A DNA stretch of 64,000 nt from Utricularia gibba. Taxonomy: Eukaryota; Streptophyta; Magnoliopsida; Lamiales; Lentibulariaceae. Under the pieces are notes generated by a model, which ran no database searches, was not told where the DNA came from, and was given only the letters and a program-made list of their open reading frames with translations. A program made the translations under genes and the position numbers. The stretch spans positions 5,580,001 to 5,644,000 of the forward strand of contig CM007990.1 of assembly GCA_002189035.1 (NCBI GenBank), given 5' to 3'. Shown piece by piece: positions 7,055 through 53,900 of this stretch (its first letter is position 1; the number at the start of each line of letters is the position of its first letter).

Positions 7055-8944
7055 TCAGTAGGGCGAAACGCCGACGTTGGGCGGACCCAGAAACCCTTCC
7101 TTCATAAGCGCATCATCTCCTTCCTGCAACAAGATTCAACTCAACGCATATTTAGAAATTAGGGTTTTCGAACATCCATGCACGCACCTGCTGACACACA
7201 TTCGCCTTCTTCACCGGCTGGTCGGGCATGAGACCGAAGTGGATGTGCGGAAAGTGGGCCCACTGGAAAGAAATCAACCAGAACACCAATCGTTAAGAGA
7301 CACATGGCATCTACCGACAGACATGGAACCCTAGTCCACATAAGCATCATTAACATGATGAATCTTTCTTAATTCTCGCAAACCAGAAGAAGAAACTTCA
7401 GTAAGAACCTTTCCGGATTCGAAAGCCTTAGTTTCATTTTCCTAAGAGACAAAGCGGGGATGGGTCGAATCTTACGTTTTTGGCAGCTGCACTGAAGGCC
7501 TCCCTGTGACTGATATCAGGGTTTCCAGCCTTGATGCGTTGGATCTCGTCCCTGCATCGAGTTTAGTAGTATCTGTCATCGATAAGGCCAACCCATTTCG
7601 CAATTCTAAGTCGTGGGTAAGCACTAGGCACTGTTATGGTTTTGTTCCCATTAAACCTCGTGCGCTGTAAAAGAAGCTCGCCTCCATGAATAAAGCTGCA
7701 ACTGCGCAAAACCCGTTGCAGCTTTGGCGAGGGAGCAGTGTAGTGTAGGATAGGGTTGTGTACAGTTTGCATCTATATCGTCGCACAGTATCCAGTTCTA
7801 GATACTGGAATTAAATAATGCTTGTCCTAGAACTTACTTGATGAAGCGGTTGTAAGCAGAGGGAACTCTCTGTCTTTTCTCCGGAGCTGAAGGGAAAGAA
7901 AGAAAGAGAATCAAACATAAGCGACAGTAAGAGGAAGTCAATTCAGTGTCCGTCCAATATCTGTGTCTATTTCTCTCATCACACACCATCATTATGTAAT
8001 GATCATTTTCCTCTGCTCGGATCCCGGGGAACAACAACACAGGATTCTAGTCATTTATTACCGAACCCAGAAAAAAAAAAGTGACCCCAGAGGAGATCAA
8101 GAAGTAGGGCTCTCAAGATTTGATGAATGGGGAAGTTGAGCGATGTCTGGGCAGAAAAGAAGCTTGAAAAACTCAGTAGTGGGATAGCTAACGACTGTGC
8201 AACGAGAATGGATTCAGAAAAGGAAGCCATGGTACTCGATGCTGCACATGGAGGAAAAGCAACCAACATTAAATGGGGTTTGGTGTTGTGGAAGTGGTAG
8301 CTCGAGATCTGGTTTTTGCTAAGGGTGGATTAAAGACCTAATGCAGGATTAAATTCTAAGGGAAACGGATAATCTCACGTCGATTGGCCACCGGTGGCTT
8401 TGGAAGCTCGTCGATGCTACGAACAGGGCTGGGGTTTGGCTGGTTGGCAAACACGTTCGCCGGAGAATTCCTGATATCCTCCTGCATAATGCAACTCCAT
8501 TGAGCATCAACCACTAGAAAGATCCAGATCTTTCTCCGATCAAAGCAAACGCTCAGAGAAGAAAAAGAGGTTTCGCCTATCTGTTTACCAGGAGATTCTG
8601 AGAGGAGAAGAAGGGATGGCCCTGAAGAAGCTGATGGGCGCCAGGGGGTGAAGCGGCGCCCTCATATACACAGAGAGGAGAGTGGTACAGTGACCGCATC
8701 TCACAGTAACAGTCTTGAACAAGCTTGCACAAGGAACGCTCACCTGATCAAACAAAAAGAAAAAAAAACCCTAAAAAACCAACCACAACCACAAAAAAGC
8801 GATATGGGTATCTCTTTGTACCGCGAGGACGGTGTCGCAGACTTGACAATGAACATAGCAGAGCTGCTCGGCGGCCGCGGCGGTATGGTGGTGGTGATGG
8901 CTGTCCTGCGCAGCAAATGTGGAGGAAGAAGAAGAAGAGGACAT
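7055..8944 (-). CDS. FIL: YABBY transcription factor, FILAMENTOUS FLOWER/YAB1-YAB3 type, with a one-base frameshift
   Basis: Seven exons on - (8822-8944, 8589-8743, 8379-8481, 7838-7886, 7476-7551, 7188-7262, 7055-7123). Exon 1 has a Ser/His-rich start and the first zinc-finger half ([16 protein letters not shown]). Exon 2 has the second half ([15 protein letters not shown]). Exons 4-6 encode the HMG-like YABBY domain ([46 protein letters not shown]). The FIL-type tail ends [23 protein letters not shown] and [10 protein letters not shown] mark the FIL/YAB3 clade, which sets abaxial fate and lamina growth. Exon 2 is 155 bases. The zinc-finger frame and the frame of its second half disagree by one base at the CCC of 8659-8661. 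With one more base all exons join to 216 residues. As written, everything after the zinc finger is out of frame. The family is certain; whether the lesion is real is not. Confidence 0.9.
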
Positions 8945-9055
8945 TCCGAAGACGAGGCTGGCTTTATCCAGAAAGAAAGTTTTTGGCTCAATTTTTTCCT
9001 TTTCTTTATAGTTTCTAAGTGATGATTTGATTGATGGATTCGTTATCCAGGTAGG

Positions 9056-9063
9056 TTTATATA
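9056..9063 (-). promoter_or_regulatory. TATA box of the YABBY gene
   Basis: TATATAAA on the minus strand lies about 110 bases upstream of the YABBY ATG. This is a plausible distance for a short 5' leader. There is no other evidence. Confidence 0.4.
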
Positions 9064-9144
9064 CATCTGCGCCCTCCTCCTCCTCCTCCGCGTTCTGCAA
9101 CCGGAGTAGGAGTAGTAGCAGGAGTAGGGGCCGCCCCTCCAATT

Positions 9145-13235: not shown

Positions 13236-14515
13236 TCAATCTGTTACATGGACAGGAGTAGGATACACTTTGGATGGAATGACGGTGTCACCAATCCAGA
13301 ACCCAGGCATCACCATCAGGCCTACTTTTGGTTTTGGGTCCTCATCTTTTGTGGTGAAGTTCTTGATGACACTTTGCATATAAACCTCTGAATACTCCGC
13401 ATCTCGTTTTACCTGAAATACCTTCACAGGGGGTCAAAAGAATGTGCCAAGCGATGGAGAAGCCAGATGGATTTGGCTAGTTTCAAATACGCCTGATAAA
13501 ATGTCGTTCTTGGATGCCCACCTCTATTAATGAAGTTCCTGTGGTCCAAATTACCAAAGAATGATCCTTCCATTTTCTCGTGGACTACCAGGATGTACTT
13601 GGCCTGACAGAATTTTCCGAAGGATGAATCTGTGCTTGAGCATACGGCATCCAGAGGGTCAGCATCCCTCAGGGCCAGATACTGCTGAAAGAAGCTTTCT
13701 TTGGTTTCAGGTGGATTCTCCTGCACTAGCGAGAAACTTGCATCTTGGAACCCGATAAACATTTTCTGGCAAATATGTGATTCAAACGCATATTTCTTGT
13801 GAGACCTTTTAGCATAAGTTACACCTGGATCGATGGCATTCGCTGCTCCATCCAGATCCCAATCAGCAGCCTTCATCATGTTTATCAATGGTTTGGAGAA
13901 ATCATGGACCGCCCTAGAAGCATCCTCTAATGCTAACTTAAAAAGATCAAAATTTAACTCCACTGACGGATGTCCTGGTTCATCACCAATTCCTTCGGAG
14001 TCTATTGCTGACAAGCCCCTGAGTTTCAGGTTTTTCTCAAGCTTCAGTTTTTTCTGAGTTGCATCTTGAATTTGCTGCTCCAGCTGAAGAATCTCGGAGT
14101 CTTTATTTTGAATTTCAGATTGAAATTTTTTAACCATCACTTCATACGTCTTCAATAAGCTCTGCTGTTCCTGAATCTCAACTGCTAATCGGGAATCTTG
14201 GGGAGAGATACAAAAAGGCCTGGGGTTATGTTCTCTATAGAAGTGCTTTAGCTCGGATAAATTCTTAAGCTCTGCCACCACAAGCTTATCAGCAGCTTGG
14301 ATCTTTTCAGGATCATAGGGAGTGTGAGCAGCTTGAAGTTGCATGTAAGCAGTTTTCAAGGCCGAGATGTTTGCGAATATCCTTGAGATTAAGGTTTCCA
14401 TAGCTTCAGGATTCTGATACTTTGCGTCTTCCATTGGTTGCGGGTGAACCTTTTGGTTGCTGTTATCACGAAGTTGGTTATCTTTCACTCCACTGTGTTG
14501 CATTTCTACAGTCAT
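13236..14515 (-). CDS. GIL1/DUF641 family protein (gravitropic in the light), with a one-base frameshift near the C-terminus
   Basis: The main frame (14515 down to 13424) gives 363 residues. It starts in a basic, polar leader, then the DUF641 N-terminal region (METLISRIFANISALKTAYM, PYDPEKIQAADKLVVAELKN), a coiled coil of about 60 residues, and a C-terminal domain (FSKPLINMMKAADWDLDGAA, HKKYAFESHICQKMFIGF, LKLAKSIWLLHRLAHSFDP). It then meets a stop, while the expected continuation (VFQVKRDAEYSEVYMQSV, PKVGLMVMPGFWIGDTVIPS) reads on in another frame to 13236. Adding one base in the G5 run at 13429-13433 (C5 on the gene strand) restores a 426-residue protein of normal family length. GIL1-family proteins negatively regulate gravitropism in light; paralogue IRKI interacts with a receptor kinase. 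The coding region looks intronless; the spliced leader lies upstream. Confidence 0.87.
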
Positions 14516-15399: not shown

Positions 15400-17246
15400 C
15401 TACTTACAGTTTTCAAGAGTATAAGCTTCCTGATCACCAAGAAGATCAGACACGCCCCCAGCAAAGAACTCATGCACCGTCCCCTCAAGTTCAATCCAGC
15501 TGCAGCCAGGGATTTTATCCATATCCTGTTGCTTCATCACCTTCCTGAGCTTCCTCACGTAGTCCCAGTAGCCGAATCGAGCGTACATGTTCGACACCAG
15601 TATGCGAGAGCCAGGACTATAAGATGCATCTCCAATCAGATGGTGGGCAAGTTGTTCTCCAGTGTGGAGCTTCCCATGGTTTATGCATCCGCTGAGCAGA
15701 GTTCGCCAAATAACATCGTTTGGTGGAATGGGCATTTCCTGGACAAACTTTGACGCCTCTTCCACGAAGCCTGCTCTGCTAAGAATGTCAACCATGCACC
15801 CATAATGTTGCAACTTGGGCACAATCTTGTGGAATCGCCTCATTAGCTCAAAGCAGATAATGCTTTCCTTCACCATTCCTGAGTGTCCGCAGGCATGCAA
15901 AACTACGATAAATGTGATATCATCGGGTTCAACTGAAAGCCTTTCCATGTTCATAAACAAATCGAAAGCTAGATCACCATAGCCATGAATGGCCAAGCCA
16001 CCGATGATAACATTCCAGTGATCAACACTTTTATCTGGGATGCCTTCAAAAAGGTGCATGGCTTTGTCTATGTCACCACATTTGGCGAACAAGTCAATGA
16101 GCGCAACCCCAAGTTTTCCTCCGACGATGAATCCATGTTCCTCCATAAAACGATGAATTGAAAGGCCAACATCGATGCAACCCAAATGAGCAGCCGCTGA
16201 GAGAGCAGTCAACAAGGTCACATGGTCTGGTGTAAAGTTAGCTGAATTCCCCAGCATGTCATGAAACACTTTGAGCGCCTCCTGATAATATCCGTTATTC
16301 ACATATCCAGAGATCATGGCGTTACAGGAAATGACATCCCTCTTGGGCATTGTATCGAAAATAGCTCTAGCGGCAGTCAAATTTCCTATTCTCGAGAAGC
16401 CATTCACCATGCTGGCCCAACTCACTATATCCTTTTCTGGCATCTTCTCAAATAGGCCCTCGGCCAGATACATTTTCCCGGCCCTTGCACATAAATCAAT
16501 CATAAGATTCCAGGACACCAAATCTCTCTTTGGCATTTTATCGAAAAGATCTTGCGCATCCCCATACCCGTCTTCTAATCTCATGCAGCAAGCTATCATT
16601 GTGTTCCAAGAAACAACGTTCTTCAAATGTTGGGGCATAGTATCAAACAACTCCCTGGCCAAGCTCACCTTTTTACACTTAGCATACCCACCAATCAACA
16701 AATTATACGAAAAAGAATCCTTTTTAGGCATTCTCTCGAAAACTAGTCGCCCGAATTCAATCATCCCACAGTTTATGTACATGAGGATCAAGCAATTTTG
16801 CAAAATCACCCGCGAAAAGAGTTTTAATTTGCAAACCAACCCATGAATCTGCCTTCCTTCATCCATTAGCCCCAGTTTCGAACAAGCCTTCAGCATTAAT
16901 GACACCGTGTATTCATCCACTAAAACCCCCTCACAAGCATTAAAACAAACACCTGCAACGCGCTCCTCAGTTCTCCCCCCTGTAACATAGACCGTATAAT
17001 GGCGTTCCACAAGAATGTATCCCTGAAACCATACTCAAAAAGGAGAAGTCTTGCAAAATCAGAACATGGTTTGTGGGGCGAAAATGCCAAATCAACCAGC
17101 ATCTTCCCGGTCAGCGACTTGTTCTGTATATGCCCAGTGGTGATCAAATTCGCATGCAGCTGATTCACTTCCATCTCTGTTTTGCATTTTGAGGCAAACA
17201 CAGGCAAATAACTCCATTGCTGTACGGGATTCACCATGCAGAGCAT
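15400..17246 (-). CDS. CRR4: CRR4-like pentatricopeptide repeat protein (PLS class, E domain), with a one-base frameshift
   Basis: This is an intronless - strand gene. The first 105 or so codons (17246 to about 16930) read KTEMEVNQLHANLITTGHI and FRDTFLWNAIIRSMLQGGEL. The rest of the repeat array and the E/E+ region (PPNDVIWRTLLSGC, KIPGCSWIELEGTVHEFF) read in another frame to 15400. One extra base in the C5 run at 16926-16930 joins them into 615 residues. Repeats alternate P, L and S types, for example RDLVSWNLMIDLCARAGKM and DSFSYNLLIGGYAKCKKVS. SVDHWNVIIGGLAIHGYGDL, QHYGCMVDILSRAG and the overall length match Arabidopsis CRR4 (613 residues, from memory). CRR4 specifies editing of the plastid ndhD start codon for the NDH complex. 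There is no DYW domain, as expected. The gene name is by recall and needs an alignment. Confidence 0.78.
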
Positions 17247-23971: not shown

Positions 23972-24860
23972 CTGCAAATATTCAACGAAACACAAATTTT
24001 AATATATCTACATCACAAAATGAACACGTATCGTCGCAATTGGCCGGACCGTTCTCATACCGCCTCCCATCGAGGATCAAGAGAATAGAAGAACCAACCT
24101 GAAACTGAATCAGACTGGAGTATTTCAAGAATTTCAGAGAACCAGCACCTCAACGTGTAACGCCCGACGCTAGAGCTGTGGGACTGAACGGAATCAAATC
24201 GAAGCTCACTTGGGAGGGAAGCCAACTTAAAAAAGAACGGTCCCCGTCCCCGAGATTTGAATACTCTTTAATTCCTATTTTTATTTTATAATAAAAAATG
24301 TAACCGTTACGGCTTTTCTTATTGGGCCACGTTTCGATCCACCCGCACAAAGCCCGACAACACCTACTTTCAATATAGTTACGGAATTTAGAAATAAATT
24401 TAAAATATCTTTTTTTTGTTTTTTAGTTATAATCTATTTTTAGCAATTATTATTATAAAACAAAAATACATTAAAAAATAGAATTTCAGTCATTTTCCAG
24501 ACCACGTCTCCATTGGATTGATTTGTCGTCATATCCATGTACGGCAAGTCACAACAGCCAACGCCGGCGAAGTTTCGCTGGATTTCGCTGACGATTGTCT
24601 CATTACTCTATCTAATCCGAAGCAGCCAGGATGCTGGGTTCTCCCGTCTTCGTCACCCCAACTGGGAATCTTTTTTTTTATTTGTGTGACCAACTCCACA
24701 TGGATCTTGGTAATGAATTATTACAATAGGGATAATGTTTCAACCACCCAGTTGCCTTCCGACTAGTCGCGAGCTGCATTTTCCGACTGACTTTCAATGT
24801 ATGAGTCTCTTTTATTGAGCTTAAAATACACCTGAGTTCTTGCTTCTACGTATCCCTATA
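23972..24860. promoter_or_regulatory. Divergent promoter region between MAP65-3-like and MSL genes
   Basis: 5' leaders of both genes lie here. 24360-24500 is AT-rich. The open frame at 24518-24766 is short and lacks protein character; it overlaps the likely MSL leader. Confidence 0.45.
24187..24308 (-). promoter_or_regulatory. Cluster of three AACGG (MSA-core) motifs upstream of MAP65-3
   Basis: AACGG occurs at 24187-24191 and 24236-24240 on + and at 24304-24308 on -. The last lies in GTAACGGTTA, one mismatch from the mitosis-specific activator consensus YCYAACGGYYA. They lie 215-340 bases upstream of the MAP65-3 ATG. MYB3R factors use MSA sites to drive G2/M genes, including cytokinesis genes. 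Orientation is mixed and the core is short, so confidence is limited. Confidence 0.4.
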
Positions 24861-27223
24861 ATGGATACTGGTACTCCGAAGGATGAAGTTGCAGTAGAGA
24901 TTCAGGCTTCCGCAGCGGCCCCTGCGTCGCAAGTCGAGTTGTCTACTGCAACCGGGTTGCGGTATAGAACCGTGTCAAGAACAGCGTCTGGTAAGCCTAA
25001 ATCCAGAGTCTTGGAGCCACGGACGCCTGTTCAGCAGAATAAATCGCCGTCGAATGGAGTTCCTGTGGCTGAGAACACATCCAATACTCCCTTGATGGCG
25101 CCTCCAGGAGGAAGCCCATTTGAAGAAGATGACGACGACGAGGACGATGCTAATGATGACGCGGGTGTGTACAAGGCGCGACCATCCGATTTCCAGAATG
25201 GGAAACGGAGAAAGAAGGTGAAAGTATGGGTTATCATTGAATGGATTGTGTTTGCGCTCTTAGTATCCCTTCTGATATCCAGTCACTTGGTGAATTACTT
25301 ACACAATCTGCGGATTTGGAGCCTAAGCTTATGGAGATGGTGTGTGCTTGCTCTGGTAATCTTTTGTGGCCACATATTTACCGAGTGCTTGATCAGTGTC
25401 GCGGTTATATTGATTGAAAGAGTGTTCCTGCTGAAGAAGAATGTACTGTACTTCTTGTTCGCCATGAAAGATAGCATCCAGGTTGTCTTTTGGTTGGCCT
25501 CGATACTGGTGGCCTGGGGCTGATCATCCAGGGAGGCGTTCGGAGATCCGCTTTATCGTCTCGAATCCTAAACTACATAACGAGAGCCATTGTGTCTACC
25601 CTTGTTGGGTCTGTTATTTGGGCGGTGAAGACGTTTGCAGTGAAGCTGGTGGCCACAAGGTTTCACGTTAGAACTTACTTTGACAGGATTCAAGAATCAG
25701 TCTTTCATCAGTACATTCTGCAGGCGCTGTCAAAGATAGTGAATGAAACCGGGCATATCAGTTTCAGAAGAAGGGGTAAAAGGAGCAAGGAGCAAGTGAT
25801 CAATGTGGATAAACTGTACAGGATGAAGGGAGATCACGTATCTTCTTGGACGATGGGAGGGCTGATTCAACTGATACGGCATTCTGGTTTGCCTTCCCTT
25901 TCTCTGACTGATACTGTCGAAGAAGAAGAAGAGGAGGAAGAAGAAAAGGAGCAGCGAATGAGTAGCACAGCAACAAAAGATATCGAAACTGAGGCCGAGG
26001 CGATAAAGTCTGCCAACAAAATCTTCAAGAAACTAGCCAGGCCTGGAAGCAAGTGAGATGACAACATTCTGATACATGCCTCTTTTCTATCTTTCAAACG
26101 AGTGACTAACAGTATGGTGCAGGCATATTGAAGCAGTTGACTTGTTAGCTTACATGCCGAAAGAGGAAGTTGATGCTGCGATTCCACTATTTGAAGGAGC
26201 AGCAGAAACAGGAAGGATCAAGAAATCATCCTTCAGAAATTTTGTGGTTGGCCAACGATACTCTCCTTTTGTCTTTAATCTTTACTTCTTTTTATGTCAG
26301 AATATGACAGATTTTGGTACATTTTTATAGATAAAGGCTTACAAGGAAAGGAAGTTTCTGGCTTATTCACTCAACGATTCGAAAACGGCAATCGAGGAGC
26401 TGAGCAAGATCGCCTCAGCACTAGTTCTAGTCGTGATAATCATAGTGTGGCTGCTGTTGATGGAAATCACCACCACCAGAGTTCTGATATTCATCCTCAG
26501 TCAGATTCTGCTTGGTACATTCATCTTTGGCAACTCTGCCAAGACACTGTTTGAATCCCTCGTCTTCGTCTTCGTCGTGCATCCATTCGATGTGGGAGAT
26601 CGCTGTGTCATCAATGGAGTGACAGTAAAAAGCTCACCCACAAACCACTGTTCAAGATTCCTTTCCTCTAGTGTTTGATCATTGAAACGTTTCCAATGCA
26701 GATGACCGTGGATGAGATGAACATTATGACAACCATCTTCCTCAAATCAGACAACGAAAAGGTGTACTACCCAAACTCAGAACTTGCAAAGCTGCCGATC
26801 GGCAACTTCAACCGGAGCCCTGAGATGATGGGTGACTCTGTGGAGTTTGCCGTCGACTTTTCTACCCTCTTCCCACCTTAACTGCTCTAAAGGAGCAGAT
26901 CAAACGGTATCCCTCCTTCAGCATCACTATCTGTTTCTAGCAACTCTCTACTGAAAGCTCCACACTTGATCAGGTATATAGAAAGCAAGCCCAAGCACTG
27001 GAGCCCTGGCCACAGCGTTCACATCAATCAAATAGTGGATGTGGACAAGATGGTCTTGGGATTGTACCTGACACACACGATAAACTTCCAGAACTCTGAA
27101 AGGGGGAGCCGGAAATCGGAATTGATACTTGAGCTCAAGAGGATTATGGAGGAACTGGGGATCAAGTACCGTCTTCTTCCACAGGAGGTTCATGTTAAGC
27201 ACCTTGATGCTCAGAGGACTTAG
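24861..27223 (+). CDS. MscS-like mechanosensitive channel (MSL10-type, plasma membrane class), with two one-base frameshifts
   Basis: Five exons (24861-26052, 26123-26246, 26331-26624, 26702-26906, 26974-27223) give 688 residues once two missing bases are allowed for. The N-terminus is long, cytosolic and acidic (runs of Asp/Glu). About six transmembrane helices follow, including VWVIIEWIVFALLVSLLISS and the pore-lining TM6 region (ILSQILLGTFIFGNSAKTLF), then the MscS beta domain (PFDVGDRCVINGV, MNIMTTIFLKSDNEKVYYPN) and a C-terminal domain ending HVKHLDAQRT. A second acidic run (about ten Glu) lies in the long loop. Frame breaks: at the G4 run 25516-25519, where AWG is followed by a stop but LIIQGGVRR continues in the next frame, and within about 26870-26884, after FAVDFST. 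Exon lengths fit splice phases only with one added base in each of these exons. Class II MSLs give stretch-activated anion currents and cell-swelling signalling. Confidence 0.87.
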
Positions 27224-27421
27224 TTCCATCTGAGATGGAGAAATCCAGATTTCAGTTCCCGTTGTTCGTGAACGGAAGTTGATGATGAAGAGAGCTGTTT
27301 TTTTTTTATTATTACTAAATTGGTAAATTGTTTTTAATAAAATGTTCTTTTTTGACTGTACTAGAAATGAACTCTTTCCGATCGATTCTTCTCAATCGGG
27401 CAACTTTTAGGGCTCGGCGAA

Positions 27422-28476
27422 ATGCAATCCTCCGCCTACCAGCGATTGCCGGAAATAGCGGTTTTCGGTCCGCCGACGTTCTTTCGAACCCACGAGAAAG
27501 AGTTCGATTCGAGGTTCCGGATTTTACGGACTTGGAATTCCCCTATACCCCTGACCCAGCTTTTGGCGTCGGAAGCAGGGCAAATCGAGGCGGTCATTGT
27601 TGCAAGTTTTGTCCCCTTTACGGCGGAGGTGATCGCTGCACTGCCCTCGCTGCGCCTGGTTGTAGCTGCAAGCAGAGGACTCGATCGCATCGACCTAACC
27701 GAATGCCGCCGCCGAGGCATCACGGTGACCAACCCCGGCACGATCTTCTCCGATGACGTGGCGGACCTCGCTGTGGGACTCCTCCTCGACGTCTTGCGAA
27801 GAATCACCGCCGGGAACCGCTATGTGCGGAGCGGATTTTGGACCGCAGGTATGGATTGGCCCCTTGGATTCCAGGTACACCCAAACTTGACAACGTAATC
27901 AACCCTTCCGGAACACGATCAAGAACCCATCTTTTGTTTCACTGATCGCAGTTGGCAGGCAAGAAATGTGGGATCGTCGGCCTGGGAAGCATCGGCCTAG
28001 CAGTGGCAAAGAGGCTCCAATCATTTGGATGTGAGATACTATACACTTCCCGGAAGAAGAACCTCTCTGTCCCATACAATTTCTACACCCACACCCAAGA
28101 TCTAGCCTCTGCTTCCGATTGCCTCATCCTCTGCTGCGACCTGAATAATGAAACCTGGCATCTGATCAACCGTGAAACCCTGCTAGCGCTGGGGAAACAA
28201 GGGGTCATTGTGAACATCGCTCGTGGGTCGGTGATCGATGAAAACGCCCTGGTCCAATCCTTGAAGTGCGGGGAAATCGCGGGTGCTGGTTTGGATGTGT
28301 TTGAGACGGAGCCCATGTTCTCAGGTGAGCTCCTTGAAATGGATAACGTGGTACTGACCCCGCACGCCGCCGTGTTCACGGAGGAGAGTTTCAGAGCATT
28401 GTTCGAGCTCACATGCGCCAATTTGGACAACTTCTTTAACAACAAGCCCTTGCGTAACGTTGTTGCTCTTCAGTAG
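27422..28476 (+). CDS. HPR3: Glyoxylate/hydroxypyruvate reductase HPR3-like (D-2-hydroxyacid dehydrogenase)
   Basis: Two exons (27422-27874, 27952-28476) encode 325 residues, the normal length for the family. The N-terminal substrate domain includes PSLRLVVAASRGLDRIDL and the GITVTNPG strand. The NAD(P)-binding domain has the GLGSIG loop (KKCGIVGLGSIGLAVAKRL) followed by YTSRKKN; Ser-Arg after the second strand suggests NADPH preference. The three catalytic residues are visible: Arg in NIARGSVIDE, Glu in GLDVFETEP and His in LTPHAA. Family knowledge: HPR3 is a minor hydroxypyruvate/glyoxylate reductase that backs up peroxisomal HPR1 and cytosolic HPR2 in photorespiration. Related HPPR enzymes reduce hydroxyphenylpyruvate, so the substrate is not settled. 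No clear transit peptide was seen. The spacing from the MSL stop is only about 200 bases. No frame faults. Confidence 0.87.
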
Positions 28477-29055
28477 ACTCCAACATTCACTCATTGCGTG
28501 TACACACGTTTTAATCGAAATTTTCAATTTTTATTTAAAATATTTAAATGTTAACGAATAAATTAAATATTTAAATTCAAACAGATATTTTTTAGATTTT
28601 AAATTTAGTTTAACAGGATATTTTGATAAAAACTATGTAGAAATAATATTTTTATTTTATTTTATTGATACTTACTATCCACTTCACCATTTACAAAATT
28701 GACTATTTTTATTATAAAATTTTAAATGTTAATCACCTAATCTTAAATAGTGTATTGAAATAAAAAACTTTATGTTATAATATATAATATAATTTTTAAA
28801 AAACACAAAATTAAAATATAAAGCCCACCACAAAAGAGCGTCCCTCCAACGTTCAGCTGACTCAGCTCCACATCATTTACGCAAAAGAGGGGATTCTTGT
28901 TCGGTTTTTAGGGTATCATTAGCATTCACATTTTTTAATTTAATATAAATTAATAATTAAAAATGATTATACGACCGACACACACACAAGGAGGGGTTAT
29001 ATCATTCTTGATCAACAGAGCAACTTATCTCGTCTGGCGAAGAAGGATTAGGAAA
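28477..29055. other. Intergenic, AT-rich
   Basis: The 3' UTR of HPR3, then an A/T-rich stretch (about 28510-28830) without coding signal, then the short promoter and leader of the F-box/PP2-A gene. An in-frame upstream extension of that gene from 28963 is possible but lacks family support. Confidence 0.5.
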
Positions 29056-30062
29056 ATGGGTGCTGCAAGCTCGTCTTCTCTGGGTGAGGGGCGGTCGACG
29101 GGGACGCAGCTCGACGATCTGCCGGAATCCTGCGTGGCTCAGGTGCTTTCCCACTTGTCGCCGGTGGAGATCGCCGTGCTTGGGAGAGTTAACTCTCTTT
29201 TCTACTCTGCGTCCTCTGCGGATCTCATCTGGCTTCGCAAGTTACCTTCCAATTTCGTGTACGTGATCTCCAAACTCCCGCACCAGGGAGCTGATGCAAA
29301 GAGCAACCACAAGATGAGCATTTATGCAAGGCTTTGCAGGCCCTGCCCCTTCGACGGCGGCACTAAGGTAAAGAGAAAGGAGGCTGAATTCAGTTCGATG
29401 AGCGTTGGGAGTTCTCATGTCCCTTCTTCTTGGTTGGCAGGCGGTTTGGATTGACAAGAAGACAGGAGGGGTGTGCTTAGCGATTTCTTCTGAAGCTATG
29501 ACGATCACAGGAATTGATGATCGCAGGTACTGGAACCGCATTCCAGCGAATGACACAAGGTGCGTGAATCTAAGCCTCGTCGGGTCAAAAATTCCGATGT
29601 GGGATCGCCGATTCATCTTCCATCGTTCTGCAGGTTCGAGACAGTTGCATACCTGAAGCAGATCTGGTGGGTGGAAGTGTCGGGGACTATGGAGTTCCAG
29701 CTTCCCCCGACACATACAGTCTATATTTCCGACTCCATCTCGGCCGCGCGTGCAGGAGACGCGGTAGTGGGAACTTCGATTCCGACGACATTCACGGCTG
29801 GGATGTAAAACCAGCGAGGTTTGAACTCAGGACCCGCGATGGGCAGGCCAAAATCACACATTCCAAGATCAACAACGTCGGGAAATGGAGTTATTACCAT
29901 GTGGGTGACTTCGTAGTCGCCGCTTCTGATTCGGATTCTGTCACGAGGGTAGATTTCTCTCTGGCGCAAATCGATTGCACGCACATTAAAAGGGGTTTGT
30001 GCGTGGATTGCGTTCTCGTTTGCCCTCGTGGCCTACCACCGGAGGCAACTGCTTCTCCGTAG
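29056..30062 (+). CDS. F-box protein with phloem protein 2 domain (PP2-A12/A13 type), with a one-base frameshift
   Basis: Three exons (29056-29367, 29441-29559, 29634-30062) give 286 residues if one base is added in exon 3. The F-box is LDDLPESCVAQVLSHLSPVE followed by NSLFYSASSADLIWLRKLPS. The PP2 lectin-like domain has WIDKKTGGVCLAISSEAMTI, TGIDDRRYWNRIP, YLKQIWWVEVSGTMEFQLP, then, in the other frame, DTYSLYFRLHLGRA, WDVKPARFELRTRDGQ, SYYHVGDFVV and FSLAQIDCTHIKRGLCVDCV. The switch is at the C5 run 29704-29708, where C6 would keep the frame. The protein is expected to be an SCF substrate adaptor that may bind glycans through its PP2 fold; Arabidopsis relatives are light- or stress-responsive. 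The start is chosen at MGAASS, matching the family's MGA start. The two halves are clear. Confidence 0.88.
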
Positions 30063-33000
30063 ATGCTGAAGCTTGGGAAGGGGACACAGTAAAATCGACG
30101 GCAGGGCACTTACGTCTTTTCATTTATTCTTTCTTTATACAGCACAGACTTGCCTACGTGTACTTTGGATGAGGATAGAAATATTTTTCGTCAGAAAATT
30201 ATTAAATTCAATTTCTCACATTATTTAAAAAACAAATTGCGTCTATATGACGGCATTTTGTAGTTAATCATTATATCTTTTTTCTTATCATTAATGGAAT
30301 ATTGTCACACATTTCAAAGAATTATTATAAAATAATATATAATAATATCAATAATAATGAAATTTAATCCAACAGTCATTTAATTTGATTAATCGTAACG
30401 ATTATTCTGTCATAAAATAAAATGGAATTCTTATTTTAAAATAATCATAAATGATGATATCCAAAATGATGTACTTTGGGTCCCACCGCAATATATAAAG
30501 ATTAAATGGTGACGTACATCTTTGATAGTCACACGTTTTTATCTCTCCAATATCCATTTCATGGATTTTCATGTCTGATTTTAATTAATTATAATTTCTA
30601 ATTAAAAATTAATTGACATATGTATTGGATGAATACGACTATAATTATAAGTTATATAATATTTAATTATAAATTTTAATAACTCCCAAATTAAAACAAA
30701 TTTCATTAATTATATACTTCAATTACTTTTTTTAGGGTATGTTTGATAGTATAATATAGGAAATTTATATTTAAATTTATACATAGTTTGATTAACTAAT
30801 ATATATGTCAAGTTTATATGACTATATCACTTATAAACGCATTTTTTGAACATGTAAATGGTATATATTAATAGAAGAAGAGGTGGTTAATTATATTTAT
30901 ATCATTCAAATATTTAAATTTTTATTTTTGGATATCAAATATTATATATAATTGAACATACATAAAAAATTATATTATTCTTAAATATATTAATGTCAAA
31001 CGATTTATTAATATCATATAAAAAGTTAATATTTATATTCTTTTTTATTTAAATTCAAATTAAATTACATTCATCCATAGAATATTATTGGGCCGAGCCG
31101 TGTCCATTGGGCCATGTATGTATAAATGGACCTGATTGTGTTCCTAGACAGCCCAACTATCTCCACCTCCCCTCTCTTTTCCTTCTAGCAATGGACCATA
31201 TAACATAACCCCATCATTAGCCAACTCGATTGATCATCCCTCTCATACAAATATGGGTCATTTAGAAAAGTGGCTATCCTCACCTTATCTCTCACACCCT
31301 ACGTTCAAATTTTAACACTAAGGATGTCCATTTTTATCACATAGTGAGATGACAGTGACCAGATTTCTAAATCATTCTATAAATACTCTCTAAACGGTGT
31401 CGAAACTCGTTTTTTCAATAGCGTCGAGATGTGCCCGGACTTAGACGAGATGCGATAATTGACGACGAATCGAAGAAAAAATAGATTCTATATAATCTAA
31501 AGTACATTGACCGGAGAAGGTTATGGTAGATAGTTGCTTAGGCAGAGAGGTTTGAATGGAGACTAGCAAAAGCTCCCATTCAATGCCACCCGAATCACAT
31601 CTCCCCGTCTCTCTTATTGCAATGCAATTATTCAATTGACCAAAGGCTACGTAGCACCCGGTCACCACCCCCGCCCCTTTTTTCTTTTCTTTTCCTTTTT
31701 CTTTTAAAAAATAGATATTCGAAAATAAATAAATAAATAAATTAGGAGTAAATACTTGGAATTAAATCATGAAAAAAAGAAAGAAAGCGTTCGGGTTATT
31801 ACAATAAATGGTAATTAAAATATTGGTGTAGGGGGCAGCCCAGCCGCCCATTTACACCTATTTTTGTAAAGTCAATAAGATGAAGCTATGACAGGGTGAA
31901 ATGACTCATAACCCCATCTACTTGTTGTGTGTATTTATTCTTTTACCCTTGTGATTTCTTTTTTTCTAAAAACAAAAAGAAATACACGTCTTGTTGCATT
32001 TAATGCTCGTAATTATGATTCATTTTTGTGTCAATTTCGAAAGGCGTTGGGTTGAATTGGGGACACGTCACCAGGGAGGAAGATTATGCAGCTATTTATC
32101 TTTCGTATTAATATTAATATAGTAATGAAATGCATGGAGGGGGCGGGTTAAAGAGTAAAATAAAGAAGTGGATTTAATTAAATTAAAATAGGCGGCTTAT
32201 GATTGATGGATCAAAAAGGGAAGGGGATCTCTCTTTCCTTAAAACACGTGCGGACAATTACGTAATTAATTAATCGAATAATTAAATCCTTGTGTTAAGT
32301 GAGGCATTTATTAGATTCTGGGTGTTTTATTTACTAATATTAAATCATTCAGGGGGAAACCTAACGACCGCTTAAACACCCCCACCCACGCCTTAATATT
32401 TTTTAAATCATAAGCAGCACCGGAGGTGGTTGGTGATATTTAGAATCACAGTTAAACTCAGACACGTGATAATATTGGGATGAGGGGACACTCAACTATA
32501 ATGTTGAGCATATAAGAGGAGCACAATGTACGGTAATGGCGTATGACGATATTCTACATTGGTTATGAATCAAAAGAATATGTAATTAAATATAATGACA
32601 CTCTTAATCCTACTCGATTACTTTTACCGAAAAGAAGGAACGTAAAATTATAAGAATTTGATAGTTGAATTGAATGATATCGTACAAAAACAATGTGAGT
32701 TGATGATGTGTGGCGGTCATGGGCATCGGTGTGCCATCCGCTGTGATTGATAGAAAAAAATAGATATTTATTTTATCAAATTATGAAACCATCAGAATGA
32801 AATATATCTAATTTTTAAATATTATAAGTCAATTATAATTGATATTAAAACATAGGGATCATAAATAATTGAAGTAAAAAGATTGAAGACTAAATATTTC
32901 AGGACTAATTATATTATATAACATACATAGTTCTCAATACATACAAATTCATAGATATAAACAAGTTTATCAAATAGGGGTTTGGATATTTTAGCTTTTT

Positions 33001-34204: not shown

Positions 34205-37200
34205 ATGAATTTTGGGGATTTTCTTGATAGTACTGGAGCAATCGCTGCTGATTTACCTTACGCGAACGCAAAGATCGCCATTGCTGCTGCTGCTGCTCCT
34301 CCTCCTCCAAGCGCTAATAATACCAACGCCATGCCCAGTGGCGCAATCGCCCACCCTCAGCTTATTTCTCAGACCCTCCTCCCTAACAAGCCCATCTTCA
34401 ACGGCGGCTCCACTGGCCTCTCTCTCGCTCTGGTACAGTCTTATTTGTCATGGCTCTCTTCTGTGTGGGTTTTCTTGTGTTTTCTTGACGTTGGTGTTTC
34501 CGACAGCAATCTGGTATGGATGGGCAAGGAGAAGTTGCGAGAATTGGAGAAAACTTCGACGGGAGCAATGTCGGCGGGAGGAGGAGCAGGGACGAAGAGC
34601 ATGAGAGCAGATCTCTGAGCGATAATTTTGACGGCGGATCCGGCGATGATCTGGACGGGGCCGACAAGCCTCCGAGGAAGAAGAGATACCACCGACACAC
34701 CCCGCAGCAAATTCAAGAACTTGAAGCGTATGATATGATTTCATTATTGTTCATCTTTTTCAAACGGCCTGAATCCATTGTGGTTTCTTGTGTTTTGTCT
34801 TCTTCTCAGTCTGTTCAAAGAGTGTCCTCATCCTGATGAGAAGCAAAGACTCGAGCTCAGTAAACGCCTCTCTCTGGAAACCAGACAAGTCAAGTTTTGG
34901 TTCCAGAACAGAAGGACTCAGATGAAGGTACTCCTCCACTCCGATCGTTTCTTGGGCTGGTCCTTTTGTTTTCATTTCTTACTCTTGTTGTTTCTGATCC
35001 AGACACAACTCGAGCGCCACGAGAATTCCCTTCTGAGGCAAGAGAACGACAAGCTCCGAGCTGAAAACATGTCCATGAGAGAAGCAATGAGAAATCCAAT
35101 GTGCACAAACTGCGGTGGACCAGCCATAATGGGCGAGATATCTCTTGAAGAGCAGCATCTCAGAGTTGAAAACGCCCGCCTGAAGGATGAACTCGACCGT
35201 GTCTGTGTTCTCGCCGGAAAGTTTCTGGGCCGACCCGTGTCTTCCTTCACAAACTCCATTGCTCCTCCATATCCTAACTCAAGCTTGGAGCTTGGAGTTG
35301 GAGCCAATGGCTATGGTGCCTTCAATACTTCTATGCTCCCTCTTGATCTCCCAGATTTTGTTGCTCCTTTGCCGATGTCCACAAATAAACCCACTATGAA
35401 TACATCAGCCCCTGTTGACCGATCCTTGGAGAGATCAATGTATTTGGAGCTTGCTTTGGCTGCCACAGATGAGTTGGTGAAGATGGCGCAACTTGAAGAT
35501 CCCCTTTGGATCAGAAGCTTGGAGACAGGGACTGAGATTCTGAATGAAGATGAGTACGTGAGAAATTTCAGTTCTTGCATTGGGCTCAAGCCAAATGGAT
35601 TCACCACAGAGGCGTCCAAAGAGAGTGGCTTGGTCATCATCAACAGTTTGGCTCTTGTGGAGACCTTGATGGATTCGGTGAGTATGATGTTGATTCAAGA
35701 CCGTTGATCTGCTATGTGTCCGAATGCTAACACATCTTAGTGTCTGTTAGAACAAATGGGCAGAGATGTTCCCTTGCATTGTTGCTAGAACCACAACCAC
35801 GGATGTGATCTCCAATGGCATGGCTGGAACCAGGAGCGGCTCCCTTCAGCTAGTAAGTAATTCATCTCTTTACTCAATGATCTTTGCATTAATCAAACAC
35901 CTTGTCGGCTTAGCTGTGTTTTTGATTCCATAGATGCAGGCTGAGCTTCAAGTTCTTTCCCCACTGGTGCCTGTCAGAGACCTACACTTCCTCCGATTCT
36001 GCAAGCAGCTCGCCGACGGCGTCTGGTGGTTGTCGACGTCTCCGTGGATGCCGTTCGTGAGACTCCCGGCTGCCCGCCGGCGTATCCAACTTGCCGGCGG
36101 TTGCCATCCGGCTGCCTGGTGCAAGATATGCCAAACGGGTATTCCAAGGTAAACATCTTTTTCACTCCCCCATCATCAATTCACGTAGTATACAGACAAA
36201 CAGAGGCAGCCAGCGGAGGCTCTTTTGTTGGGTTGCGACTAAATGCCGCTGCGAGTTAAATGCGTCTGTTGAAGCTAACTGCACACTTAGTTGGGAACAT
36301 TCAATTCTGAACTTCCAAGTCAACAGATGAACAGTGTGCGCTGGAAACGATAGTGTGATATTCCTTCCAGATGCTCTTGTTCAGGCTTTTCACCATCACG
36401 TGACAAACGGGAATCTTTCAAGACTGCCTTTTGCATAAGAAAACAAGGAGCAGGAATAAGAAGTTTCCTTGATGTTAACAGGTTACCTGGGTGGAGCATA
36501 GCGAGTACGATGCGAGCGAAGTCCACCAGCTCTACCGGCCGTTGATAAATTCCGGCTTCGGCTTCGGCGGGCCGAGATGGATCGCCACTCTCCAACGACA
36601 ATGCGAGTGTCTGGCGATTCTCATGTCATCATCTGCACCGCCCAAGGATCATCATACAGGTAAATTGCATTGCATGCTGCATTCTTCGGAGTCGATGCAG
36701 ATATACCATAATCGGTTGTTACGGGTGTAGCAATTAGCGCCGGAGGCCGGAGGAGTATGCTGAAGCTAGCGCAGCGGATGAAGAACAACTTCTGCGCAGG
36801 AGTCTGCGCCTCGTCGGTGCATAAATGGAACAAGATACAGACCGAGAACGTCGACGACGATGTGCGGGTGATGACGAGGAAGAGCGTGGATGACCCCGGG
36901 GAGCCACAGGGAATTGTGTTGAGTGCAGCTACCTCGGTGTGGCTTCCAATGCCGCCCCAGCGGCTCTTCGATTTCCTCCGCAACGAGCATCTGAGAAGTG
37001 AGTGGGACATTTTGTCGAACGGCGGGCCGATGCAAGAGATGGCGCATATCGCTAAAGGCCAGGATCAGGGCAACTGCGTCTCTCTCCTCCGAGCAAGCGT
37101 AAGTAACACGAACCATTTCATGATCAATTCGCATCGTCGCCTTATGACTGTTCTGTTCACCCAGGCCATGAGTGCGAACCAAAGCAACATGCTGATCCTC

Positions 37201-38495: not shown

Positions 38496-41400
38496 TCAGA
38501 GCTTTGACTGGGGAGCTGAAACTGCTTCCCTGGCCTTGCGCAATAGCCCCTCTTGAGTCAAGGAAACAAGAAGCTGAGAAAAGCAAGGAGTTGCGGTGAA
38601 TGTATATGCATATCTTCTTTGTATGCAAGGAATAGTGGATGATGCAGTGATTGAGTTACCTCTCCTTGCCTGTTGAACATCTGTCCACAAACCAATCCAC
38701 GCCCACCGTGGGCACTGGGGCTCTCGATCTGCAACCCCAAAACAATCATTTATAGTGGTAACTTTTGAGGTGCCTGGCCAGTGGAAGAAGTGAACTCAGC
38801 ACTCACCACAAACAGAATCCAGTCATCAGCCCTGAGTGATCTGTGAAACCACATCCTTCAAGATGGAAAAGAAAGAGGAGAAGGATCAATCATATGATCA
38901 ACAAGCCCCTGTTGAACTCATGCAGATGCCTGATGTTGGGAATGTAGAGAATTTTCTCTGATGCTATGCTAGATACATTTTAAAACATGTACAAAGCGGC
39001 TGGCACTCACGTGTGATCGAGGCTAACAGCAGATACTCTGATGTTCCTATTACGATGAGGATTCACGCTAACTTGCAAGAAGAGCAGATCAGACGCATAT
39101 GCCACAACACATCTGCAGGAAAAATGGGTTGGTAGCTTTAAGGAGAATCAGATCAAATACATGTTTCAATGCATGAACCAACTGTGAACGTGTATTAGAT
39201 AATCAAATAAGTTGACGTAAGAAAATATTGGCATGAAACTCCCATACCTGTGCAATGCTTGTTCTTCAGAGAGTGCACCTTTTGCTCTAAACCAGTACTT
39301 TAAACTGCAGCACAATTTAATGCACATTGAGATGAGAAATTGTGCTCTCTGTTCTAATCCTACAACTCCGGAAGTAATAGGAACATGAACAAATTGGGAA
39401 ACCTTGGAGGGGATTTTGTTTGATTTGTAGATGTATTCGGCTCACAGAACCTAATCTCAATAGGCCATGGAATAAATTCAGCACTAGTGGCAGCCACCTT
39501 GTTACGGTATGTCCTGGTAAGTGAGCAACAATCAACAGAGAAAATCATGGAAAAAAGTATTAACAAGATGTGCCAGCAGCTATGAAGTTAACCTGGGAAG
39601 GCGTGGGTCCATAAGACGTCTTTCTCGAAGATCGTCCATTGAAAGGAGCTGATGTTGAAGACCATTATTTAAAGAGGAACAGAAATTCATGCATCGAACA
39701 CCACAAAATTATATTTCAGAAACCTCGTTTGGATCAGGCACTGGAGGCATTGTGGGCACCTGGTGATTCCATCTATCTTCATCTTTCTATAGTTTTGTTG
39801 ACATGAATATCAGATTACAACTTTGTCAGTCAATTATATAGCACATCAAATATCATACATGAACCATAAAAAAATCATGCAAATGGTTGTTTTATTCATA
39901 TGGATCCGGATATAGATTCACTTCATCTAACAAATTTACTTGAAAGGAAGCCATCAGTGTGAACACGATATTCCCTTTCTGTAGAGCATCAACCCTCCTC
40001 GTTGCAAAGCTTTTGCCATCACGTGCACGGTGAACTTGATATATTATTGGGACTGAGACCACCACAATTGAATAACTGAATCTTATACGCCAATTTAAAA
40101 AATTTCGAAAAATTCTATAGAAAAAAAAAGACAGGAACAATCTTTTCCTCTAAGATTCCAAGACAATAACTAGTCGCTTATCACTGCCTGCATACTCTGG
40201 ACATAAGGAAGTAAAGAAAAGATGCTACATTAGGGAAAGAGGTTTTTGTATGAACGTACTGTCAACATCACCCGCAAGAAGAAAATAAGTATGCAAACTG
40301 TGAACGAACTTGAGACAATCAACGGTTTTAGAAGCTGCAGCCAGAGCCTGCAGAATACACCATAGGATAGAAGCAATGAGGAACTTGTAAAACATCATTT
40401 TCTTGTCCCCTTAAGTACAGATTTTAATGCTCATGTCTTATGCCTAAATCTTAACAAAGGATACCATGCCATCTGATCCCGAAAAGCATCAAAGCGGCAT
40501 GATCTACAAAGGCCCAAATACCTGCCCAACAAACTGACCCCGAACACCTTTCCAAATCTTGGCGCATTTGGCAATGTAATGCCTTTGAAAATATCAACCT
40601 ACAATGGGTGCACAAAAAAGAAGGATTCTTTTTTTAAAGAATAAAACAGTAAGAATGTCACCAAGTGAATGAAGCTTTTTGGCCATGTAAAATAAATGAC
40701 ATTGCATGATCCAGAAACTAATGAACACAATCAGATAGCAAAAACTAGATATTCAAATAATGGTACATGCCTCTATAGGATCAAGGTGTAGAATTTGCTC
40801 AACAAGTGGACATCTCTCCTCTAACTTGTCAGCGTTCCAAATAGAACCGGGCTTTAAGAGATTCGCATACTTATTTGGAAGAAATAGGCAAGTAAGCTGA
40901 AAGGCAGGAAACACGTGTTAACAGCCTCTTAAACAAAATGGGACAGGGAGCCGAAGTATACGTAGGAAACAACCTTGGAAAGTGCTATTATATCTGCTGA
41001 CTGATTAGATGCAAGACCTGCAACAAAACGCGTCCTTGTAACACATTTCATAAATGTCCTAAAGGGAAGACACAAAAAGAAATTCAGAAACTGGTTCAGA
41101 AATTGAGAGAGGGGAGGTTTGATTATAGGCATCTAACCATGACCAAAATAATCATATTGCTTTAAAATAAATTCGGAACTATCTTCCCGATCAGCATGAA
41201 ATGGCCCACTGACTTCAGCCTACACAGCCAAAATAAGTAATGAGAAGAGAAAAAAAAATATAAAACGATGGCTTCATGTTTGAAATGTAAATCGAACTTA
41301 CCTCTCCCTCCCATATAAAATAAATACCATCAATCACTTCACCCTCACGAAGCACAGAAGCACCTTCATCTGACCATCAGTTGCAACATAACACAATGAA

Positions 41401-42365: not shown

Positions 42366-45300
42366 CTATAGGTAGACTTGTTCTCTTGTAGATTGCACCA
42401 AATGCAGTAGAACCTTACCGTGCATTTTCTTGATAAACGATTCGAGTTCATCGAGGGTGTGCCTTTCCATGAGAAGTGGATTGAGCCTGAGAAATGTGAA
42501 AGATAGGAAGTGCTTCCCATCAGGATGGCCCAGGGGCTTTGCCTTCTCGAGCAAATGTGCATATTCATCTTCTCCATTATATGGGAAAGAAGATTGACTA
42601 GAGATTGGTATGCCGGCATCCCAAGCGGAGTTTAAAACCTGAGTTCAGAGCACTCATCAGAAAAAGGAAGAGGAAGACATGAAAGGTATCACATGGACTG
42701 GTGCATACTTGCCAAGCTAGGCCTGTGGGATCAGCCATGGATTCTGAGTAGTCCGTAGGATGATCAATTGCGGTCATAATTTCAGAATTTACGAAGAACA
42801 GACCAGCTCCATGGCTTCCCAGCATTTTCATGATTGCAGCATACCCATCACGATGAGAGGAGTTGTAATACCCGGCAGTTAATTCAGCAGCATGACTGAC
42901 TGTTTTGTACCACCACTGAATGCTTGATATCTGCCAAACCAGACAGGAAATATGAAAATTCGCAGAGAATCAAATTTCCTTATAGATCAAACATTTTGGC
43001 ATTCACCTTTGCAGCAATGCAAGTTTCTTCAAAAACTAACTTAGCCAATGAAAGGATTCGATCACCATGATCAACAAGAAGTTGGGAGTACCAAGTAAGG
43101 AAAAATCTGCCATAATAGCCATCATAATCCCCCCATCGCAAAAAAATCCCGTCTCATGGGGACTCGAATTGTAAGCACCAGAATTTTCTGGCCCTCTTGC
43201 CCAACAGGGTTGCCCCCTTATTTCAGTGGCCTTCCGTAAGCTTTTCAACATATATTGGTCATAGCACTGCACAGTAAAAACATAGGCACATTTCACGCCA
43301 ACCAAATATATTGATGAAAGCACGGGGGAGTCACAAGAATCATTTTATTGACCATTTCTTATTCAATGTCTCAACAACTCTAAGAAAAAAAAAATCCCAC
43401 TCAAGAAACATGATCTTTTACTGGAAAGTAACGAGTCGATTGCTAGAAATGGATATAGCATGATAAAAAAGATGCAGTAATTACCTGGAATTCACCAATA
43501 CCAGGGTATTGCCAGCCATGCTTAACTGGAGTACTGGGGTATCTCAACTCTCCACAAGGACCAAGCCCAATTACAATCAATGATATAGTTGCATCCTCAA
43601 AATAGCCATCAAACTCAACGCGGAAGCTTCTCATATAGTCAAAGTAAACCTACAACAGTATCCTCAAATTAAAGATGAAACAAGTAGATTAGTGGCTTCG
43701 CCAATTTGGTTGGGGTGGGAGGAACAGTAGGAGAAAGCTAAGTACCTCAACAGGAGTTCGGCCCCCAAGAACTCTTTCTTTATCAACTCCCCAAGAAAGG
43801 CATTCTGGGTTCCTTCTTCCAGCCCTATCAGTGAAGTATATGTCTGGATTGCTTTGACCGATGTTAGTCACCCAGTTAGGCAATGGGATACAAACATCAT
43901 CCCCCACGTTGCTTCCACACTCATGAAATGATAATAAAACCTGTTTACAACAAAAATCTTCCCACACATCAATAACTATCAGTTTGCATCTATTCAGAAA
44001 GATTCTCTCATGTGTTTTTCCAAAACAAATTCTTCATATAGATAAAGGAATAACCTAGAATAAGCGCAGGTACTAGTGCGAAGAGCAAAATCTTACTTGA
44101 ATCTTCATTTTCATCTCCCTTACGATTTGAAATAGCATCTGGTAGCCATTCCAATTATACACTTGAGGACAATGTGCTTCAACTATACCCCACCAACAAT
44201 GAACCATAACACCATCAACATTCACTGCTCTCAAGATTTCCAAACTTCTTACCAGTCCATCAGGATCAACAAGCTCGCACTTTGCATTGACAATACCCGA
44301 CTGGTTCAAAATATTCAGTAGTTAAAGGCACATCACTATATATAGAGAATTATCGTCAGATATTACAGCAAAGTAGTTTGAAACAACTAACTCACTGGTA
44401 GCTTAACAAAAACAGGAACAAAAGGCGTGCCAGAAAAATCTCTCCCTTGCAACTTTATCGGCACGTCCACAACCTACAAAACAGAATTATTGTGAGTGGC
44501 GCAGCATCAGTGTACCAAACGAGTTGTGAAGAATTTCACTTAAGCAGCGAGTTAAGATTCAAATAAAACAAAATCAACTGAAAGGAGAGAAACATCTCAC
44601 CTGCCTATCATCACCCGAGTCAACAGACACACCAAGAAGAGCATCATTTAACAGCTCCCCACCGTCCCCCATCATAGCAGATGTATGGGACCTTCCACTT
44701 GAGGAAGCATCATATGGGGAAGAAGTTGGCACAAAAGCAGTTTTTACCTGTGAGAAGCTGTAATCAGCTGTGCTCTTATAGCCAGGAGAAATACATCCCA
44801 GAGAAGGAGATGACACATTTTCTGCTGGAATTTGGGACACTGATGCTGCTAAAGCCGTATTTGTGGCACCACCAGCAGGCCTTACCCCCTACAGATTGTG
44901 AATTTTACTCTCAAATGAGGTGCAATCTTTTCATCTATGGTTCTCTATTTTATCAACTAAAGCAAGAGCTGTGATACCTGTGATCTACACGGAAATGTGG
45001 TTCCATCGGGAAGAACAACCCAACCTGCTTCCCTTGCCAATGCAGCAATAACATCATTAATATCAGCTCTAACCCTAAGATTATAGTTACCATGCCTTCT
45101 AAGCCCTGCTAAAATCTTTGCAGTGATTGCTCTACGTTGTCGCTCTCGCAGCTTTGTTCTTTCTTTTTCTTCTTGAGGTCGACATCTTCTAACCCCACTT
45201 ACTTGTGTAACCGGCTGATCTTGATAATGTTGTTGATTCACATAAAGACTACTAGTGGACAGAACACCCACATGCATGTCAACAACACTAGGGGTTTCCA

Positions 45301-50588: not shown

Positions 50589-50928
50589 ATAGATTCAGGC
50601 AGACTAACTGTACTTGGAAGTTGGAATGTAGAAGCTATTTCCACTTTTGCCCCTTGGTTCATCAACCCCAATTTCACGCATTAATTAAAAATTTTCCATT
50701 TGGGAGTTTAAATGTAGATGCTTGAAAAAATAATATGCATATTACAAATTAAATATGAAAAAAATTTAAAAATCACCAACGTATTTCTTGACAAGGGGAT
50801 TTCTCATGAAAAATTAGGGTTTTCCCGGATAGGGATAAACGACAAAAATTGAAAAGAGGATCAACAGTCGTAAGACCATTTGGAAATTTCGTCGTCGGAT
50901 AACGGAACCCAGTTCTTGCTTCTCAATT
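50589..50928. other. Intergenic, short, AT-rich
   Basis: SPP-like 3' UTR followed by the STE24 promoter and leader. No other feature was seen. Confidence 0.5.
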
Positions 50929-53900
50929 ATGGCGTTCCCTTACATGGAAGCTGTTGTTGGTGCGACTGTTGTTTTTTGTTTTCTTAGTGTTTCCTTCTTA
51001 GAAGAATGAGAATGAGGTGTTGCATATGAAGATTAGGGTTTTTGAAGTGTAATTATTGCCCTAGATGAGCGTAAATAGCATCGGCAGACTTAATGATGCC
51101 CGGGCTTGATTTTCAGGATTTATGGTGATGGTTTATATTTTCGAGACGTATCTTGATGTGCGACAGCATGCTGCCCTTAAGTTGCCGAGTCTTCCAAAGC
51201 CTCTGGTTGGAGTAATTAGTCAAGAAAAGTTTGAAAAGGCCCGTGCTTATAGTCTTGACAAAAGGTTGCAATCTTTTTATATTTCTGTAGCAATGCAAAG
51301 TCTGATGAAAGCATTTATGTAACACTGCGTAACTTCGTTGAGAATTCAGTTTATTGGTGGTTATTGATCCCTTTTTTTTGTTAGCTACTTTCATTTTGTT
51401 CATGAACTTGTGACAATTATAATGGACTCCGCCATTTTGTACTTCGGAGTGTTGCCCTGGTTTTGGAAGGTGAGACTTGCTTGAAGAATATCCGCGTTTT
51501 TAAAACACTGTGCTGTTGACTTATCTTTGTGTGTTAATTTTACTTGTTATTTGTGTAAATACAGAAGTCAGAAGAGTTTCTGGTGTATGTTGGCCTTGAT
51601 GCAGAAAATGAGATCTCACATACACTTGCATTTTTAGCTGGTGTTATGTTGTGGTCACAGGTGAATGTGTTAGCTTATCAGTTGTTTATGTTTCTCTTAT
51701 TAATGATTTTGCTTCACGGGAGGTTTTTGAATCCTGATACAGATAACTGATTTGCCATTTTCATTGTATTCAACCTTTGTAATTGAGGCTCGACATGGCT
51801 TCAACAAGGTTCTTATGTCTACCCTGACGATTTTGCAATGATTTTTCTACCCCATGGTGTATTCTTTTTACAAATTTTAACCGGTCTTCAAATTTAGCAA
51901 AATGTAATTTTTTTTCTTTTCAGCAAACCATCTGGCTATTCATAAAGGATATGATCAAGGGGTCTTATTATCCATAGTAATCGGTCCACCTATTGTGGCT
52001 GCTATTATCATTATAGTTCAGGTAATCCTTTTGTGTTTTTCATAGGTCGGTGTGCACTTATATGCCGAATACTGCAAACAGTCATTTATGTAAATCTTCT
52101 GGTTTGTGCAGAAGGGAGGTCCTTACTTGGCTATATATCTTTGGGCATTTATGCTGGTTGTTTCACTTGTTATGATGACTCTCTATCCAGTTCTTATTGC
52201 GTCTCTTTTTAATAAGTTCACTCCTGTAAGTGTCACACTGTTGCATTTCCTTCATCCTGTAATATTCACCAGCGTGAAAACATCCGTATTTAATTATATT
52301 TACAAACATACAGCTTCCAGAAGGAGAACTCAGGACCGAAATCGAAAAACTTGCTTCATCTCTTAAATTTCCTTTGAAGAAATTGTTCGTCATTGATGGA
52401 TCGACGAGGTCAAGCCACAGTAATGTGAGCATCTTTTTGGTTTTCTTTATTTGGTGTTTTGTAATGCACAGAAATTATACAGATGGACATATGGACTTTT
52501 GGTTCTTGTTTCTCCAACTTGAAGTATCACCAAAAATATTGCATGTCAATTCCTCAGACATTTAGTTGCGTTTTAACAATAAACACTGACTCTTGTTTTT
52601 TGAAATTGTGTTATTTAGTCATGTTTCACTGGAAACTAGACTTCTTGTTCTGTGTGATTGGTACTCAAAACTGCATATCATGCCAATTCAGAAGAATATA
52701 AAAGATTACTGTGGTGATGCGTATTATACATTAATCGCTTCCATCAGCCATGAATACTCTTCGTTGACGCCTTGGCGTTGATCATTTTCATTACGTCTAC
52801 ATAGTTAATGCCCCCATTCTCTTCACTTCTTTGTTGCAGCGTCGTTAATTCTATGCAAATGTTTCTGCAGGCCTACATGTATGGGTTTTTTAAAAACAAG
52901 AGAATTGTTCTTTATGACACATTAATACAACAGGTATGCACACATACCTGTGCGCAGGCTTTTTGTTTCTTATCAACACACATAATTCCGAATCTGGAAA
53001 ACTATTGTTCATATTTTGTAATGAATCTTTCTTTGAAATGTGTTCAGTGCAAAGAGGATGAAGTTGTGGCCGTTATAGCCCATGAACTTGGTCATTGGAA
53101 ACTTAATCATACTATGTACTCTTTCATTGCTGTGCAGGTATCTTACCTTCGTTAATTTTGTAGTTGATGGTATTCTGGAGCTTCTTGTTAATTTATTCAA
53201 CGTGAAACACGTTCATATGTTCATAAAATCCATAAACTTTACCCAAGAAAATGTTGTGAACCTTACATTTTTGGGATTGCCGTTGCAGATCCTTTCCTTG
53301 TTGCAGTTTGGAGGTTTCACTCTCGTTAGGAACTCCAAGGACTTGTTCCAGAGTTTTGGGTTTGATACCCAGCCAGTCCTTATTGGACTCATCATCTTTC
53401 AGGTGTTAGCATTATAACCATCATATCCGTACGCGCTTTGTCAAGACATAATCTGAATCTCAGTTATGCATGATTGTCATCGCTGCAGCACACAGTGATT
53501 CCTCTCCAGCACATTGTGAGCTTTTTGCTTAATCTTGTGAGTCGGGCCTTTGAGTTCCAGGTAAATAAGTGCATCAACTTTTCCTTAGAATCCGATTTTT
53601 GGAATGCATTTTTTCCCTAAATGAAATATGTCCGTCTTGAAGGCTGATGGTTTTGCCAAGGGGCTTGGTTATGCTGTACCTCTTAGGGGTGGTCTTGTCA
53701 AGTTACAGGTGATTTGCTCTTTTTCTTTCTCTTATATCAGCTTTTGAGGTCACTGACGTAGACATTCAGTGAATGTTCTTAGCTTGGCTAGCACCATGTT
53801 CTGATTCACTTATATTACGTGCAATGATTGAACAGGAGGAGAACCTCTCAGCCATGAACACAGACCCTTGGTATTCTGCCTACCACTACTCACATCCTCC

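Follow-up and report, generated by a model that had tools for sequence, protein, structure and literature searches.

One-base losses in the genes of a plant assembly: almost certainly an artefact of G/C homopolymer under-calling

The one-base losses that interrupt genes in the stretch of DNA analysed here (the window; 64,000 nucleotides, C2:5580001-5644000, from a plant assembly of which the analysis covered 100 Mb in 516 contigs) are almost certainly an artefact of a known kind, G/C homopolymer under-calling in a poorly polished long-read consensus, and no real biological feature. Eleven losses and no gain were found, in keeping with the preliminary description, which had listed ten and had held all of them to be losses. 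The losses are biased toward G/C, depend on run length, recur across the assembly and distinguish overlapping contigs of the same locus. Judged from the sequence, the eleven are almost certainly consensus errors, introduced by a poorly corrected long-read consensus that shortens G/C runs. Such a consensus would read G/C runs one base short, and more often so in longer runs; with too few accurate reads used for correction, the shortened runs would remain in the assembly, the genes themselves being whole in the plant.

At each site, the stop-to-stop frames on both sides were compared with Pfam and with solved structures. The sites are as follows, C451 being the contig that carries a homoeologous segment:

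117..122, + strand: AGC-type protein kinase; C run, one base short; the homoeolog on C451 is one base longer and reads in a single frame
8644..8648, - strand: YABBY exon 2; C run (coding strand), one base short; the homoeolog on C451 is one base longer and its frame is open
13429..13433, - strand: GIL1-like; C run (coding strand), one base short; the DUF641 match and that to GIL1_IRKI_C lie in successive frames
16926..16930, - strand: CRR4-like PPR protein; G run (coding strand), one base short; PPR matches in both flanking frames
25516..25519, + strand: MSL channel, break 1; G run, one base short; matches MSL10 chain 70-263 and, one frame on, 266-445
26872..26874, + strand: MSL channel, break 2; C run, one base short; a match to MSL10 chain 587-641 extends as far as the site
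29704..29708, + strand: PP2-A; C run, one base short; matches PP2 profile 30-61 and, one frame on, 57-148
36025..36029, + strand: ANL2-type HD-ZIP IV, START domain; TGGTGG, one G short; matches START profile 95-126 and, one frame on, 120-166
40538..40541, - strand: acyl-CoA thioesterase; G run (coding strand), one base short; the joined frames match 4HBT_3 and TesB across the site
43129..43134, - strand: beta-amylase; G run (coding strand), one base short; 7upv chain residues 198-259, then 248-296 in the next frame
51959..51962, + strand: STE24 CAAX protease; G run, one base short; the joined frames match Peptidase_M48_N and human ZMPSTE24 across the site

At all ten points noted before, the conserved protein leaves one frame and continues in the next, with a single base lost; the ten losses are confirmed by Pfam and structure-chain matches and, for YABBY, by the homoeolog. 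At the second MSL break, the downstream frame has just 34 residues and no Pfam match of its own, and its conserved continuation was judged by eye. The 45-residue frame of STE24, searched by itself against the PDB, gave chance matches only. Nine of the ten positions given previously stand, but the YABBY loss lies in the run at 8644-8648, up to which the YABBY_N profile match extends and where the homoeolog has its additional base, and not at 8659. Eleven further genes had been regarded as faultless; this is wrong in at least one case, that of the AGC-type kinase. Eight of the ten losses had been placed in G/C runs; ten of the eleven sites, the kinase included, are G/C runs that now read three to six bases, the exception being that of ANL2.

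A 15.1-kb coding sample of the window has 289 G/C runs of at least three bases and 479 A/T runs; all seven losses are in the former and none is in the latter (p ~0.001), no A/T run of the sample being shortened. The shortened share of the G/C runs, by present length, is 1/213 for runs of three, 1/59 for runs of four, 4/13 for runs of five and 1/4 for runs of six. Nuclear sequence (204 kb) contains 637, 129, 37 and 3 G/C runs of 4, 5, 6 and at least 7 bases, respectively, and its A/T runs fall off smoothly, out to 19 bases; for the plastid contig (C516), of which 57.5 kb was counted, the corresponding G/C figures are 128, 42, 10 and 4. Runs of at least seven therefore stand to runs of four to six as 4 to 180 in the plastid and as 3 to 803 in the nuclear sequence (Fisher p = 0.025). 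One-base length errors at homopolymers, mostly losses, at a rate that goes up with length and is worse for G/C than for A/T, are what long-read homopolymer error would produce, and all of these are seen here; a nanopore-like platform appears to be the best fit.

Where the assembly holds a second consensus of the same locus, the two disagree at runs. Contig C422 overlaps the end of C414, and in the 16.3 kb away from the contig end only five differences separate them: four one-base indels in G/C runs of 3-5, and a single substitution. Over the final 3.7 kb of C414, it is this contig that is the shorter at about 19 of 21 indel places, and one GRAS gene in this part, intact on C422, is interrupted on C414. 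Another pair of redundant contigs, C316 with C412, shows substitutions and A/T indels as well, the small contig being short at all four G/C differences; some contig pairs hold true allelic differences, which counts against consensus error as the explanation of every difference. The small redundant contigs C422 and C316 duplicate parts of C414 and C412; purging of overlaps or haplotigs from this assembly is incomplete. No second contig was found over the MSL-PP2 stretch (window 24001-32000), which is matched only by the homoeologous region and by a dispersed repeat; the repeat, of about 250 bases at window 30740-30994, has at least 38 copies across the assembly at 71-77% identity.

The same artefact could have another cause: not run length and low depth, but cytosine methylation that confuses the base caller. 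The plastid contig, whose DNA would be expected to lack methylation, is nearly clean: rpoC2, rbcL, atpA, atpB and psbB are single open frames. However, plastid DNA is also expected at much higher depth, and its contig may have been put together apart from the nuclear ones. Moreover, an edge CpG is absent from most of the eleven runs, and the increase of losses at a contig end fits depth. Methylation is thus an unlikely cause, though the least unlikely of the alternatives; the excess of losses at the contig end, together with the clean plastid contig, suggests that depth, not base modification, makes the difference. The sole shift that we saw among the plastid genes is in accD (C516:71296-72788), which consists of two overlapping frames and is apparently one base short near 71889-71931, near an A run and with no long G/C run. 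Decayed rbcL fragments also occur beyond the plastid contig (C2:3012594-3013507 and C515:58344-58736) and are likely plastid DNA transfers.

The losses are not peculiar to the window. Genes of the GRAS, KCS and BAHD families were found by profile search, and breaks were counted where a single gene yields two matches with no intron between them. Of these breaks, 13 lack exactly one base, three lack two, and none has one or two in excess; those offsets that real length variation blurs are also, for the most part, in the frame of a loss. Most of the GRAS breaks, read in their sequence context, lie at G/C runs, and about 40 GRAS genes give near one loss per 3 kb, similar to the window. In one GRAS and two BAHD genes, weak members of their families, a few breaks have an offset that would fit either a gain or two losses, and these ambiguous cases also weigh against consensus error. 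Breaks near profile position 135-140 in six GRAS genes were considered as a possible common real feature, which we rejected: they comprise one intron, four separate C-run losses and, in one gene, two losses in G. Likewise, the apparent gains among GRAS genes proved to be two losses or introns, save for one ambiguous, possibly decayed gene. The GRAS gene at C244:2105300-2106300, with a stop and several frame changes, may be truly decayed.

That the affected genes are real pseudogenes or true frameshift alleles is very improbable. The frameshifts are present in the assembled sequence, and contig pairs with true allelic differences occur in this assembly. Against this, there are eleven losses and no gain, in genes whose conserved domains flank the sites on both sides; the losses are confined to G/C and dependent on length, three other families share the pattern, and overlapping contigs differ nearly only in G/C runs. 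Mixed indels, stops and decayed motifs, the marks by which the preliminary description had set pseudogenes apart, are absent from the sites examined, where only single losses and no other damage were seen. Its preference for consensus under-calling over pseudogenes is borne out, in that the overlapping contigs, the three gene families, the homoeolog and the depletion of long runs all agree.

The homoeologous segment (C451, about 1.2005-1.230 Mb), in which gene order is kept in part, likely represents the remains of a genome duplication. C451:1200001-1230000 copies much of the window, with a coding identity of about 75-90% and with some genes missing, and for the ten sites noted before just YABBY and GIL1 are retained there for comparison. 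The homoeolog has C-run losses of its own, opposite window positions 49965 and 62372. In both homoeologs, though these are diverged elsewhere, GIL1 has an identical break at an identical five-base run, and consensus error then needs the same error twice, a point against it. The simplest view is that a true run of six was under-called in both copies; in the coding sample of the window, 4 of the 13 G/C runs that now read five bases are shortened sixes. Most other members of the GIL1 family pass this place in one frame, so that the shift is not a habit of the family. A real minus-one frameshift at the C run of the GIL1 pair, with the other ten sites still being errors, is hardly to be credited. 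Even less credible is programmed ribosomal frameshifting at G/C runs in general: every shift is of one sense and at a run, and the GIL1 run is conserved in both homoeologs, but the sites are unlike in sequence and position, one gene is both whole and broken in overlapping contigs, and most other members of the GIL1 family, the one family looked at in this respect, need no shift and so call for no slippery site.

With consensus error as the cause, a density of roughly one loss in every two to three kilobases of coding DNA means that a large part of the long genes would be split, truncated or called pseudogenes; the split or truncated models foreseen in the preliminary description for an annotation unaware of the errors follow from the under-calling. 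Gene losses between the homoeologs would likewise be overcounted. We regard this as a warning on one assembly and not as a discovery.

In nanopore reads, C and G homopolymers are read worse than those of A and T, and their lengths are underestimated (Delahaye and Nicolas, 2021; PMC8486125). The pattern described here is the same in that deletions dominate, lengths are underestimated, C/G is worse than A/T and the error worsens with length; it differs in that the paper compares reads with references, whereas here only a consensus is at hand, in which present runs down to 2-4 bases are affected. In a nanopore assembly of Hibiscus syriacus, homopolymer errors in genic regions are described as a cause of frameshift errors in the annotation, and were reportedly corrected by polishing, with a check by Sanger sequencing (PMC10584963). 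Both are plant assemblies with homopolymer errors in coding sequence; in the present assembly, in contrast to that of H. syriacus, the errors remain.
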